Assembly (NCBI RefSeq): GCF_003574625.1
Contig: NZ_QNUJ01000008.1
Coordinates: forward strand, 186,001 to 250,000
Length of the DNA: 64,000 nt
DNA from: Shinella zoogloeoides
GTDB taxonomy: Bacteria; Pseudomonadota; Alphaproteobacteria; Rhizobiales; Rhizobiaceae
Reading direction: 5' to 3'
Shown: piece after piece, positions 19,445-33,102 of the stretch
Numbering within the stretch: the stretch's first letter is position 1
Layout of the letters: every line of letters starts with the position of its first letter
Made by a program: the position numbers and the translations under genes
The notes under the pieces: model-generated
Seen by the model: only the letters and a program-made list of their open reading frames with translations
Database searches by the model: none
What the model was told of the DNA's origin: nothing

Positions 19445-21358
19445 ATGAACATTCACACCGGTTATGCTGCCGCTTCTCAGCAATACAAGAAAGGTGAATA
19501 TCTGGGGGCCCTCCGCACGCTCAACAGTTTGCTCGATACGACCCGGGACGCGAGGACATACTCCCTTCTCGCCAAAACCTTCCTGAAGCTCGACATGAAA
19601 TCCGAGGCGGCGGAAGCCTATGCCCTCGCCGGCCGCGAGGAAGGCAGCAGGAAGGAAGAGAACCTTCGCAATGCCATGCAGCTTCATTTCGAATGCGGCA
19701 ATGAAGATCAGGTTCTCGTTCTGGCGAGGAACTTCATATCGATCGCTCCGAAGGACCCGGAGATCGCCTATATCATCGCCTCCATCTTCCTGAGGCGAGG
19801 CGAGAAATCCATCCTCCAGGGCCTGCGCAAGCCCCTTCTCGAAAGCAACAATCCCTCGCATATCGCGCTTGCGATGCGCCTCCTTGCCGACGACCCCAGG
19901 GACGAGGAGAACCTGAGGACGCTCAAGCGCGCTATCAAGCTCTTCCCGAACCATATCGCCATGCAGCTCTTCTATCTGGTGCATGCGCGCGAATTTGGCG
20001 AGTTCGACGACGTGCGGCGTGGCCAGGCGCTCATCGAGAACGAAATCGCGAAGGGCAACCGGGAGGTCGTGCGGAACGACAACCCCTTCCACCATCTGAT
20101 GTGGTGCGGCGACGAGAGTCTCAACGGAACGGTCGGCTTCTCCGCCAGCGCCTACGATCCGGCCCTGCCGGAGAAGCGACGCGGCATGCCGCATGACTGG
20201 TCGGGAAGGAAGATCCGCATCGGCTATCTGTCGAACGATTTCTGGGAGAACCATGCGACGATGAAGCTCGTCGGAAACGTCCTGGAGCAGCACGACAGGG
20301 ACCGTTTCGAGATCACGCTCTTCTGCTACACCGCCCCGCATCACCTCGAAACCAACAGTTTCGATCGCGGCCGCTGGGGCAAGGTCATTTCGGTTGCCGA
20401 CGTGTCGAATGCGGAAGCTGCCGCCCTGATCCGCAAGGAGAAGATCGACATCCTCGTCGACCTCAAGGGACACACCAAGGGTACCAGGTCGCATATCCTC
20501 AACGAGGCGACCGCGCCGGTCCACGTCGCCTGGCTCGGTTTTCCCGGTACGACCGTCAATATCGATCTCGACTACGTTATCGGCGACCCGATCGTGCTGC
20601 CGGAAGCCTCGCGCCCGCACTATTACGAAAAATTCTGCCGCCTGCCGGAAACCTACCAGCCGAACGACCCCGTCAGCCGCCCGCGCCTGCAGCCGTGCAG
20701 CCGCGCCGATTTCGGCCTTCCGGAGGACGCCTTCGTCTTCGCATCCTTCAACGGCAACCGGAAGATCAGCCTGAAGGCGATCGATGCCTGGATCAGTATC
20801 CTCAAAAAGACCGAGAATTCCGTCATCTGGATTCTCGGGGCGAACGCGCGTTTCCAGACGAATATCCGCAAGGAATTCGAGAAGAACCGCATCTCGCCCA
20901 AGCGGGTCTTCTTCACGACGAAGGTCGGCTACGAAGAGCACATCAATCGTATCCAGGTGGCGGATCTCGGGCTCGATACCTATCCCTATAACGGCCACAC
21001 GACGACGTCCGAACAGCTCTGGGCCGGCCTGCCGGTCCTGACGCTCAAGGGCACCAACTTCGCGTCGAGGGTGAGCGAAAGCCTCTTGAACGCAATCGGC
21101 CTTCCCGACCTCGTGGCAGCAGACCAGGCCGACTACATCGACATGGCCGTATCGCTCGCCAAGGACCGGACGCGGATCGCCGAATACAAGAAGCGTCTCT
21201 CTGACAACCGCTTCCTGAAACCCTTGTTCGACAGCGAACGGTTCTGCCGCCACCTCGAAAAGGCTTACGAGATGATGGCCGACCGCGCCAAGAGCGGGCT
21301 CGGGCCCGATCACTTCGACGTCCCCGTCTTGCCGGAGCGAACGGCCAGCTTCGCCTAG
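19445..21358 (+). CDS. Second O-GlcNAc transferase-like (GT41/SPINDLY) glycosyltransferase, candidate flagellin glycosyltransferase
   Basis: Soluble protein of 637 residues. Residues about 1-200 contain degenerate TPR-like helices (YKKGEYLGALRTLNSLLD, KSEAAEAYALAGREEGSRK). The GT41 region starts near 255 with IGYLSNDFWENHATMKL (histidine near 269), then [32 protein letters not shown] (lysine near 439) and LDTYPYNGHTTTSEQLWAGL. The start at 19445 has GGGAG upstream and replaces an earlier in-frame ATG. The key His and Lys lie at nearly the same residue numbers as in the paralogue at 4134-6179, so both are probably active. It follows fliQ on the same strand by 197 bases. Flagellin as target is inferred. 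Confidence 0.83.
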   Translation: MNIHTGYAAASQQYKKGEYLGALRTLNSLLDTTRDARTYSLLAKTFLKLDMKSEAAEAYALAGREEGSRKEENLRNAMQLHFECGNEDQVLVLARNFISIAPKDPEIAYIIASIFLRRGEKSILQGLRKPLLESNNPSHIALAMRLLADDPRDEENLRTLKRAIKLFPNHIAMQLFYLVHAREFGEFDDVRRGQALIENEIAKGNREVVRNDNPFHHLMWCGDESLNGTVGFSASAYDPALPEKRRGMPHDWSGRKIRIGYLSNDFWENHATMKLVGNVLEQHDRDRFEITLFCYTAPHHLETNSFDRGRWGKVISVADVSNAEAAALIRKEKIDILVDLKGHTKGTRSHILNEATAPVHVAWLGFPGTTVNIDLDYVIGDPIVLPEASRPHYYEKFCRLPETYQPNDPVSRPRLQPCSRADFGLPEDAFVFASFNGNRKISLKAIDAWISILKKTENSVIWILGANARFQTNIRKEFEKNRISPKRVFFTTKVGYEEHINRIQVADLGLDTYPYNGHTTTSEQLWAGLPVLTLKGTNFASRVSESLLNAIGLPDLVAADQADYIDMAVSLAKDRTRIAEYKKRLSDNRFLKPLFDSERFCRHLEKAYEMMADRAKSGLGPDHFDVPVLPERTASFA

Positions 21359-21451
21359 TCCAGGTCCTTGCCGGGCGGCCCACGTCGGGCGCCCGGCAAT
21401 AGTGATCCGAAACCTGCCTGCTTCAGTGAAACCCGATAATCGAGCGTACCG

Positions 21452-31418: not shown

Positions 31419-32579
31419 TTGGCAATTCAGCTCTTCGTTCCCCGCTTTCATGTCGACGAATGCCTCGAGCAGATTCGGGAGTGCCTTGAGAAGGGCTGGA
31501 CCGGCATGGGCTTCAAGACCCTCGAAATGGAAGCCGCGTGGAAGAGCTATACGGGGCTGGCGAACGCGCATTTCCTGAGCTCCAACACCGCCGGCCTTCA
31601 TCTCGCGCTCGAGGTTTTCCGCCGCCGCTTCGGATGGCAGGAGGAAGACGAGATCATCACGACGCCGCTGACCTTCGTCTCCTCCAACCACGCCATCCTC
31701 TATGCCGGCCTGAAGCCCGTCTTTGCCGATGTCGACGAGTATCTCTGCCTCGATCCGCAGAGCGTGCGCGACCGGATCACCCCCAGGACCCGTGCCGTGA
31801 TGTTCGTCGGTCTCGGCGGCAACAGCGGGCAATATGAGGCGATCCGGGGCCTCTGCCGCGAACACGGGCTGAAGTTCATTCTGGACGCGGCGCATATGAG
31901 CGGCACGCGGATCGACGGCAGGCATGCCGGGCATGACGCGGACGTCTCGGTCTTCAGCTTCCAGGCCGTCAAGAATCTCCCGACGGCGGATTCCGGCATG
32001 ATCTGCTTCGCTGAGGAAGAAGATGACGCCGCCGTCAGGAAGCTAAGCTGGCTCGGCATCAACAAGGATACCTTCTCGCGCACCGCAGCGCAGGGCGACT
32101 ACAAGTGGATGTATGACGTCGAAACGCTCGGCTACAAATACCACGGCAACTCGATCATGGCCGCCATCGCGCTCGTGCAGTTGAAGTATCTCGACGAGGA
32201 GAACACGTATCGCCGGCAGCTTGCGGCCTGGTATGAGGAGGCGCTGCAAGGCGGTGATATCGGCCTTGTGCGGGTCGCCGCCAATTGCCAGTCATCCCGC
32301 CACCTGTTCCAGGTCCTCGTCCCCCGGCGCAACGAGACATTGGCGCAACTGAATGCCCGCCAGATATTCCCGGGCGTCCATTACCGCGACAATACCGAAT
32401 ACAGCCTCTATGCGTCCGGTGCCGGAACCTGCCCGCGCGCGGCGCAGGCGAGCAATTCCATAATCTCCCTGCCGCTGCATCTTTCCATGACCCGGGAAGA
32501 TGTCGGGACCGTCGCGGAAAACCTCAGGGACATTGTGTCCCAGGCCTCGCCTACAGGAACCGGGCGTATTTCTGCCTGA
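31419..32579 (+). CDS. DegT/DnrJ/EryC1/StrS-family sugar aminotransferase
   Basis: PLP enzyme of 386 residues, transcribed away from rfbC. The PLP-binding lysine is near 185 in VFSFQAVKNLPTADSG, preceded by FILDAAHMSGTRIDG; TTPLTFVSSNHAILYAGLKP is also typical. Members of this family aminate C-3 or C-4 of dTDP-keto-deoxysugars (VioA, DesI, RfbE types). The start is TTG with GGAAG six bases upstream. Its last 29 bases overlap the convergent acetyltransferase gene. With rfbA, rfbB and rfbC, 4-amination is the simplest inference. Confidence 0.88.
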   Translation: MAIQLFVPRFHVDECLEQIRECLEKGWTGMGFKTLEMEAAWKSYTGLANAHFLSSNTAGLHLALEVFRRRFGWQEEDEIITTPLTFVSSNHAILYAGLKPVFADVDEYLCLDPQSVRDRITPRTRAVMFVGLGGNSGQYEAIRGLCREHGLKFILDAAHMSGTRIDGRHAGHDADVSVFSFQAVKNLPTADSGMICFAEEEDDAAVRKLSWLGINKDTFSRTAAQGDYKWMYDVETLGYKYHGNSIMAAIALVQLKYLDEENTYRRQLAAWYEEALQGGDIGLVRVAANCQSSRHLFQVLVPRRNETLAQLNARQIFPGVHYRDNTEYSLYASGAGTCPRAAQASNSIISLPLHLSMTREDVGTVAENLRDIVSQASPTGTGRISA

Positions 32580-33102
32580 TCCTGTCCCAGTCGGGGCGCA
32601 GGATTTCATGCTCCACCATGCCGTGCCTGCGGTCGCCGATCTGCAAGGCGGCGGGATGGAGGCCGCAGCGGCGCGCGCCATAGATCTCATGAAATGTCAG
32701 GACGCGGATATTGCCCTCGGCCGTGTGGGAAAACAGCCGTTTCATGTCCAGCGTCTCGAAGATGAAACGGTGCAGAAGCAGGACCGATTCCAGGAGTACG
32801 GGGCTGGATTCCCCCATCACCCAGCGGCCCCACTCCATCTCGCCGTCGCCCACCGGATTGTAGGCGGCGAAAAAGCCGATGGGCGTGTCCCTGTCCAGCG
32901 GCTGGATGGCGAACATGTAGTCGTCCGGGCGGGTCATCTGGCGCCTTACCCAGGCGCGCTGCTCGTCCAGCGTAATGTCGAGCGGCGGCAGGAATTCGGT
33001 CAGATCGGGACGCTGGCGAAGGGAGAGCATCAACGCTGCGTCCGCCTCGTCGATGGGCCTCAGCATTACTTTCCGTCCGACCAAGGCTGACTGCGTCGCC
33101 AT
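32551..33102 (-). CDS. GNAT-family N-acetyltransferase
   Basis: Protein of 183 residues with the acetyl-CoA transferase fold: LRPIDEADAALMLSLRQRPD at the N-terminus, PIGFFAAYNPVGDGEMEWGR, then NIRVLTFHEIYGARRCG. The start at 33102 has GTGGG upstream; an earlier in-frame ATG at 33231 adds an unlikely extension. It resembles aminosugar N-acetyltransferases of surface polysaccharide loci (WecD/PseH-like), a likely partner for the neighbouring aminotransferase, though substrate is unknown. The 3' end overlaps that gene by 29 bases. Confidence 0.8.
   Translation of the reverse strand: MATQSALVGRKVMLRPIDEADAALMLSLRQRPDLTEFLPPLDITLDEQRAWVRRQMTRPDDYMFAIQPLDRDTPIGFFAAYNPVGDGEMEWGRWVMGESSPVLLESVLLLHRFIFETLDMKRLFSHTAEGNIRVLTFHEIYGARRCGLHPAALQIGDRRHGMVEHEILRPDWDRIRQKYARFL

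Follow-up and report, generated by a model that had tools for sequence, protein, structure and literature searches.

The closest described counterparts of the locus analyzed here are flagellin islands of other bacteria. In the portion of the Aeromonas study available, the group II flagellin islands comprise genes for an acyl carrier protein (ACP), a 3-oxoacyl-ACP reductase, an AMP-dependent synthetase, luxE, luxC and glycosyltransferases (PMC7874193), and the accessible parts of two further papers record LuxE in 73 strains and LuxC in 80 for enterobacterial flagellin islands (PMC4875605) and a cassette-like gene set in the Dickeya EC2 flagellin cluster (PMC7575072). The glycan of the Pseudomonas syringae viosamine island is given in the excerpted account as an N-acylated methylated dideoxyaminosugar on flagellin, the viosamine being made with the ketoacyl synthase VioS, a 3-oxoacyl-ACP synthase III (PMC3927599). 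The subject of the present analysis is an island of 13 open reading frames (ORFs) at positions 19445-33105, between fliQ and flhA, in a 64,000-nucleotide stretch of Shinella zoogloeoides DNA (contig NZ_QNUJ01000008.1, positions 186,001 to 250,000) termed the window.

The Shinella island has an ACP, a reductase, an AMP synthetase, luxE, luxC and glycosyltransferases in common with Aeromonas group II as excerpted, whereas the latter has pseudaminic acid genes and Maf-2 in place of the dTDP-aminosugar genes and GT41 enzyme of Shinella, the genome of which has no NeuB match (PMC7874193). LuxE, LuxC, a CaiC/FadD ligase, FabG and ACP are likewise common to the enterobacterial and Dickeya islands, for which the available parts of the papers name no rfbA/B or GT41 (PMC4875605, PMC7575072); Dickeya also has a VioA-type aminotransferase like that of Shinella and differs in the additional TktA/TktB and FkbM (PMC7575072). 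The partial account of P. syringae gives an aminotransferase, methyltransferase, acyltransferase, 3-oxoacyl-ACP reductase and ACP as in Shinella, but VioS and the 1173-amino acid VioT have no counterpart in the Shinella island, and the Shinella RfbC, AMP ligase, LuxE/LuxC and GT41 are not among the seven ORFs listed there (PMC3927599). An earlier first-pass annotation of the window had described LuxE/LuxC as an unusual reductive step foreign to the Pseudomonas route. They are indeed missing from the P. syringae viosamine-island genes as listed; the step itself is not novel, being already in print for the Aeromonas group II, enterobacterial and Dickeya flagellin islands in the parts of those papers available, which give no tested function for the cassette.

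The best explanation of the locus as a whole is an acquired, cytoplasmic flagellin-glycosylation island making an acylated dTDP-aminosugar, with a probability of about 0.72.

Flagellin as the proposed acceptor

The first ORF of the island (19445-21358, plus strand) encodes a GT41 glycosyltransferase with a predicted tetratricopeptide repeat (TPR) N terminus (PF13844, E 9.7e-74), which from its OGT-like model and its relatives by flagellin genes is the proposed flagellin O-glycosyltransferase. The 29 best GT41 loci outside the genus lie in eight other Rhizobiaceae genera (the window's own locus is excluded and weaker matches fall outside the count), and in 28 of them a flagellin gene is placed divergently within 1.5 kb of the GT41 gene, the exception being L185. 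Because the relatives elsewhere in the family adjoin flagellin genes in this way, flagellin is taken as the target, and on this comparison glycosylation of flagellin by the island is very likely. Among the 394 family genomes sampled, 78 have a GT41 match at E<=1e-90. One Shinella genome (G394; C37, L073) has an island-type GT41 (57% identity) divergent from its flagellin genes and no second GT41 match; most other Shinella, unlike this genome, have a GT41 of a second, resident type in the flagellin region. The GT41 alignment includes 28 of 30 relatives together with the window protein, L171 and L173 being left out.

The predicted model of the island GT41 has a mean predicted local distance difference test score of 82 with the N-terminal 200 residues helical. 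In the VIA-align structure list, which is a re-look at Foldseek ranks and not a full search, the model superposes onto Xanthomonas OGT (XcOGT) with a Z score of 35.4 and a root mean square deviation of 3.7 over 486 aligned residues. Residues 7-121 weakly match designed TPR chains (E 6.7e-5 and 2e-4), and Pfam gives no TPR match at E 0.001. The architecture is like that of Caulobacter FlmG, which in the text available has a flagellin-binding TPR N terminus and a GT-B C-terminal domain and is cytoplasmic, although FlmG uses pseudaminic acid and the Shinella species has no NeuB match (PMC7591256). At E<=1e-20 NeuB is unmatched in both the window's own genome and the same-species genome, which makes a nonulosonate donor unlikely; 8 of the 21 genus genomes have a match. 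The TPR-GT41 would bind flagellin via its helical N terminus and, before flagellin leaves the cytoplasm, O-glycosylate its Ser/Thr residues. The presumed acceptors are three flagellins encoded on the plus strand of the window at 815-1696 (Flagellin_N and Flagellin_C), 1951-2922 and 6518-7480 (the latter two from the Pfam scan).

A parallel is found in Telmatospirillum (L096), where a flagellin gene and flbT adjoin a DegT aminotransferase, an ACP-ketoreductase-ligase-LuxE-LuxC run, a PglD-like hexapeptide acyltransferase, rfbB, rfbA and a methyltransferase. Judged from its gene content, this locus is an independent flagellin island with like parts. The first-pass annotation had the Shinella island making and attaching to flagellin an acylated methylated deoxyaminosugar of the kind found in Pseudomonas; the flagellin target gains support from the GT41 relatives and the Telmatospirillum locus, and the Pseudomonas-type sugar has become doubtful. 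A broader and distinctly tentative proposal is that the TPR-GT41 proteins beside Rhizobiaceae flagellins form an unrecognized class of flagellin O-glycosyltransferase, one of which the island would supply with a dTDP-4-(hydroxyacyl)amino-L-sugar via a mobile LuxE-LuxC-SDR-AMP ligase-ACP converter shared by the glycan clusters of many phyla.

Insertion site and ancestry of the island

The inserted 14-kb segment spans 19248-33249 and has no strand of its own. The left junction falls directly past the fliQ stop (19247) and the right junction is at approximately 33250, where the sequence common to the relatives restarts before flhA (33350). Comparison of the FlhA region in 20 other genomes of the genus and the window's own (21 in all) places fliQ and flhA 100-294 bp apart in 19 of them, so that the site is vacant there and the island is an insertion. 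The two carriers are the window's own genome and one same-species genome, in which the fliQ-flhA spacing is 14,095 bp and all 13 genes are present with 94-100% identity. The 23.7-kb flank aligns to Shinella sp. PSBB067 with 91.6% identity over 95%. The DegT aminotransferase is matched at E<=1e-40 in 2 of the 21 Shinella genomes, and a LuxE match occurs in 5 of 394 family genomes (own counted), one of the five being a weak 66-residue hit.

Base composition, which the first-pass annotation had put forward as a check together with gene order, also separates the island from its surroundings, with a GC content of 0.618 (19248-33245) compared with 0.646 in the remaining window. The third-codon-position GC averages 0.783 over the 13 island genes compared with 0.848 over 19 flank frames (Mann-Whitney p 0.0004); two of these frames, 48939 and 51296, are probably not genes, and their inclusion pulls the flank value down and so makes the difference smaller. 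The island is horizontally acquired, of mixed ancestry and confined to one Shinella species as sampled. An insertion sequence or att-flanked element was considered as the visible vehicle and rejected, there being no bracketing repeat pair of >=18 nt and no transposase or integrase family among the island proteins. A promoter scan returned one site against a mean of 2.7 in shuffled sequence, that is fewer, and was not used.

The gene families named in the first-pass annotation are all present between fliQ and flhA. Pfam assigns 12 of the 13 ORFs, and the thirteenth is a 78-amino acid carrier protein (28376-28612, minus strand) with no Pfam match even at E 0.5, recognized by its invariant serine and its cassette relatives. 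This residue, Ser36, lies in a W-x-S-x-x-H motif and does not vary across the 67 aligned ACPs, which include that of the window. Relatives of up to 61% identity occupy the same cassette position, five of the best seven loci falling at 55-61%. Each part belongs to a known kind, and their combination appears unusual for Rhizobiaceae; in the open-access literature no publication was found on the island or on the linkage of GT41 with flagellin.

The acyl group and the sugar

Downstream of the carrier gene on the minus strand are genes for an SDR/FabG-like reductase (27646-28389; PF13561, E 4.1e-61), an AMP-forming acid ligase (26183-27649; PF00501, E 3.3e-41) proposed to be an acyl-ACP ligase, a LuxE-type acyl-protein synthetase (25117-26214; PF04443, E 2e-46) and a LuxC-type acyl reductase (23894-25123; PF05893, E 2.5e-26). 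LuxC and LuxE enzymes work through a cysteine mechanism. The LuxC residue Cys245 is conserved in 75 of 75 aligned sequences, and the LuxE residue Cys353 in all 80 rows with a letter at that position (81 rows in total; the LuxE alignments omit L011 from Nonomuraea, the chosen stretch of which had a stop, and the scan alignment also omits L012 at 26% identity). The LuxE profile matches the LuxE structure 7xc6_E, and LuxC aligns weakly (E 0.028) to the LuxC structure 7xc6_A.

The order ACP-reductase-AMP ligase-LuxE-LuxC is that of a widespread cassette. Among the best 80 of at least 587 LuxE matches in the contig collection, which come from many phyla, a simple script found an ACP in 66 loci, a ketoreductase in 58, the ligase in 70 and LuxC in 76, some contigs being short. 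The canonical order is present in at least 41 of the 80, a minimum because contigs are truncated and some loci with that order, L086 and L089 among them, escaped the script. Directly before the cassette the ORF matches a hexapeptide transferase in 11, a transketolase in 7 and a GNAT protein in 6 of 67 ORFs scanned, and directly after LuxC it matches a lactate/malate dehydrogenase in 3 of 54; selection of the neighbor ORFs was automatic, and not all of them need be real genes. Compact cassette operons headed by a GNAT gene occur in Azorhizobium (66% identity) and Sphingobium (64%), with no glycan gene among the neighbors scanned. Operons of this compact kind, in the order GNAT-ACP-ketoreductase-ligase-LuxE-LuxC, include L086 (6886-12306), flanked by RND efflux and aconitase genes, and L089 (3085-8417), flanked by genes for a TonB receptor and RecJ.

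Within the Rhizobiaceae, a plasmid cluster of Rhizobium anhuiense (L010, 5245-17428) shares with Shinella a LuxE homologue, an acyl-CoA reductase, an AMP-binding protein, a DegT aminotransferase, an acyltransferase and an SDR, and differs in having a transketolase pair and FabZ; neither the annotation nor the matching shows a GT41 or rfb gene in it. No flagellar gene is annotated within the 25 kb displayed. This cluster, from a strain isolated from Trifolium dubium, is much like the Dickeya EC2 flagellin cluster except that it is plasmid-borne. A run in another phylum, in a polysaccharide cluster of Treponema bryantii (L121, 5952-16311), reproduces most of the window's sugar and acyl genes, in the form aminotransferase, GNAT, ACP, ligase, thioesterase, LuxE, LuxC, ketoreductase, second GNAT, rfbB, rfbA and rfbC.

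In the proposed chemistry LuxE would activate a carboxylic acid and pass it via its cysteine to LuxC, which would reduce the delivered acyl group to the aldehyde. The SDR would turn the aldehyde into an alcohol or serve as a 3-ketoacyl reductase, the AMP ligase would load the hydroxy acid onto the carrier protein, and the GNAT acyltransferase (32551-33105, minus strand; PF13302, E 7.5e-15), the proposed N-acyltransferase, would transfer the hydroxyacyl group to the sugar amine. The cassette would in this manner make a hydroxyacyl-ACP for N-acylation. The analysis shows the gene content, the insertion, the family assignments, the conservation of the Lux cysteines and of the carrier serine, and the linkage of GT41 relatives with flagellin genes; the individual reactions, their order and the residues modified are inferred. 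The sequence of events as given, with LuxE-LuxC reducing the carboxyl, the dehydrogenase finishing the alcohol, the ligase loading the carrier and the acyltransferase acting last, is possible but has somewhat less than even odds; the Treponema version with a thioesterase and the versions with a transketolase allow other orders.

A parallel for a short hydroxyacyl group is provided by the family of an Aliivibrio metagenome-assembled genome (L092), taken as the Vibrionaceae, where LuxE-family proteins occur in 42 of 296 genomes. Four of the matches sit in open frames of 830-836 amino acids, and in the three loci fetched the LuxE and LuxC matches fall within one ORF (825-827 amino acids) with an ACP and an AMP ligase (473, 472 and 479 amino acids) upstream. 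For one of them, L230, Pfam confirms PP-binding, AMP-binding, Fe-alcohol dehydrogenase and fused LuxE-LuxC proteins, and by this gene content the operon resembles the tetronate genes VC0248-VC0252 of Vibrio cholerae O1. The RfbN protein of V. cholerae is presumably a LuxE-LuxC fusion of the same kind.

In the partial accounts of that locus WbeL has 471 amino acids and RfbL is the activating enzyme for 2,4-dihydroxybutanoate, with CoA or the carrier RfbK as the putative acceptor (PMC3441752, PMC12208996). A carrier protein, an AMP ligase and a hydroxyacyl group on an amino sugar are common to the tetronate genes, as there described, and the Shinella cassette, but the tetronate target is the O-antigen and the proposed target here is flagellin (PMC3441752, PMC12208996). 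L230 shares LuxE-LuxC proteins with Shinella and differs in having them fused and in an Fe-alcohol dehydrogenase, where the island has separate genes and an SDR.

The alternative that survives best, though it is rather unlikely, is that the product of LuxE/LuxC and the ligase is a long-chain aldehyde or alcohol, as in bioluminescence, so that the glycan would bear a lipid tag in place of a short hydroxyacyl group. The Treponema version with a thioesterase beside LuxE is in its favor, as are the liposugar component proposed by the Aeromonas authors (PMC7874193) and the discussion of fatty-acid synthesis enzymes in the glycan in the enterobacterial paper (PMC4875605), both in the parts available. 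Set against these is the position of the LuxE-LuxC fusion in a tetronate-like operon, tetronate being a four-carbon dihydroxy acyl group, and neither a luciferase nor a ketoacyl synthase is found among the island proteins. A role of the bioluminescence type was itself rejected, as the lux operon has luciferase genes and the island proteins include no luciferase family, and the NCBIfam LuxC and LuxE equivalogs score far below cut-off.

The sugar-building genes lie next to the cassette. RfbA, a glucose-1-phosphate thymidylyltransferase (28697-29575, minus strand, from an internal ATG start; NTP_transferase PF00483, E 1.1e-74), and RfbB, a dTDP-glucose 4,6-dehydratase assigned by Pfam (29613-30668, minus strand) and present as a single copy in the genome at E<=1e-60, would form dTDP-4-keto-6-deoxyglucose, which the 3,5-epimerase RfbC (30671-31231, minus strand; PF00908, E 2.9e-65) would then epimerize. 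The DegT-type aminotransferase (31419-32579, plus strand; PF01041, E 4.6e-79) would aminate C4 to yield a dTDP-4-amino-4,6-dideoxyhexose, probably of the L series, and the TylF/Methyltransf_24 sugar O-methyltransferase (23060-23830, minus strand; PF05711, E 1.3e-12) would add a methyl ether. RmlD, which would convert the RfbC product to rhamnose, is not found over the NCBIfam cut-off in the genome (best 60 compared with 224 bits; the control passes in 9 of 14 named genomes), and the presence of RfbC in this setting points to an L-series 4-amino-6-deoxy sugar. That the aminotransferase takes the epimerized 4-keto sugar to the L-series amine is put at even odds. NCBIfam and solved structures assign the enzyme to no single named subfamily; the three aminotransferases at 54-61% identity (L121, L124 and L148) are all in loci with rfbC, and two of these loci hold an ORF matched by the window GNAT at 26-28%.

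The second transferase gene (21452-22945, plus strand) encodes a two-domain protein with a C-terminal Glyco_trans_1_2 domain (PF13524, E 2.5e-7) and an N-terminal part that has no Pfam match, and the enzyme would add another sugar. It is matched at E<=1e-20 in 16 of 397 order genomes (own counted), and in three genomes from a single other genus (L242-L244) its relatives adjoin rfbC and rfbB, consistent with a dTDP-sugar donor; for the remaining relatives no rfbC or rfbB neighbor is seen in the short loci.

A less probable alternative, and an unlikely one, is that the sugar is D-viosamine carrying 3-hydroxybutyryl as in P. syringae. The classes in common, namely aminotransferase, ketoreductase, ACP, methyltransferase and acyltransferase, speak for it; a VioS-type ketoacyl synthase is absent, RfbC is present and LuxE/LuxC and the AMP ligase are additional. 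A plain Pseudomonas viosamine island was accordingly rejected, no ketoacyl synthase being among the 13 proteins, and the likeness to the Pseudomonas 4-amino-6-deoxyglucose drawn in the first-pass annotation is doubtful given the missing VioS counterpart and an RfbC without an RmlD over cut-off.

Flagellin weighed against other acceptors

Several observations weigh against the assignment of the island to flagellin. Only two of the 80 best LuxE relatives (L096 and L165) lie near clear flagellar genes, with a weak MotB-like match in L125, so the acyl cassette is itself no marker of flagellin and serves more than flagellin. The genomes G009 and G113 hold a similar set (GT41, rfbB/C, ligase, LuxE/C, ACP and aminotransferase) with a more distant GT41 (32-34%) and no recognized flagellar gene within 20 kb on each side. 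The 29 GT41 loci are from related genomes and are not independent events. A resident GT41 (4134-6299, minus strand) is placed beside the flagellins in the window and is 35.7% identical to the island GT41 over 375 residues; it could modify flagellin itself with the island enzyme acting elsewhere. In 13 other Shinella genomes in which the fetched stretch covers both, the resident GT41 lies 0.2-4.4 kb from the nearest flagellin. Within the chemistry, the ketoreductase may be a true 3-ketoacyl reductase, and the Treponema thioesterase beside LuxE suggests another order of steps.

The resident GT41 gene overlaps a gene for UDP-galactopyranose mutase (2980-4137, minus strand; PF03275, E 1.7e-79), the pair lying between flagellin genes. 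Of 17 other Shinella loci examined, 8 have the mutase next to the resident GT41. The two together suggest a resident flagellin modification with galactofuranose.

Decoration of a surface polysaccharide (lipopolysaccharide or exopolysaccharide) by an island that landed in the flagellar operon by chance is improbable. The scarcity of flagellar genes near the cassette relatives (2 of the best 80) fits such a role, as do one relative in a Deinococcus polysaccharide cluster, another in a Treponema cluster that also encodes glycosyltransferases and a Polysacc_synt protein, and the fact that the only close rfbB of the genome is that of the island. Pfam, however, finds no flippase, polymerase, O-antigen exporter or initiating lipid-linked phosphosugar transferase among the 13 proteins, and the GT41 has the predicted fold of a protein glycosyltransferase with its best relatives beside flagellins. 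Least probable is a general O-GlcNAc-transferase-like role in which the substrate of the GT41 is a cytoplasmic or exported protein other than flagellin and the flagellar position of its gene is incidental. In its favor are the resident GT41 already by the flagellins and the action of GT41 enzymes in general on many proteins; against it stands the flagellin linkage of 28 of the 29 best non-Shinella loci.

With glycosylation of flagellin as the preferred reading, the linkage of GT41 with flagellin names a candidate enzyme, GT41 matches being present in 78 of 394 family genomes and the linkage in 28 of the 29 best loci, to which the examination was confined, and the Shinella species offers a compact place in which to work out the function of the LuxE/LuxC cassette.

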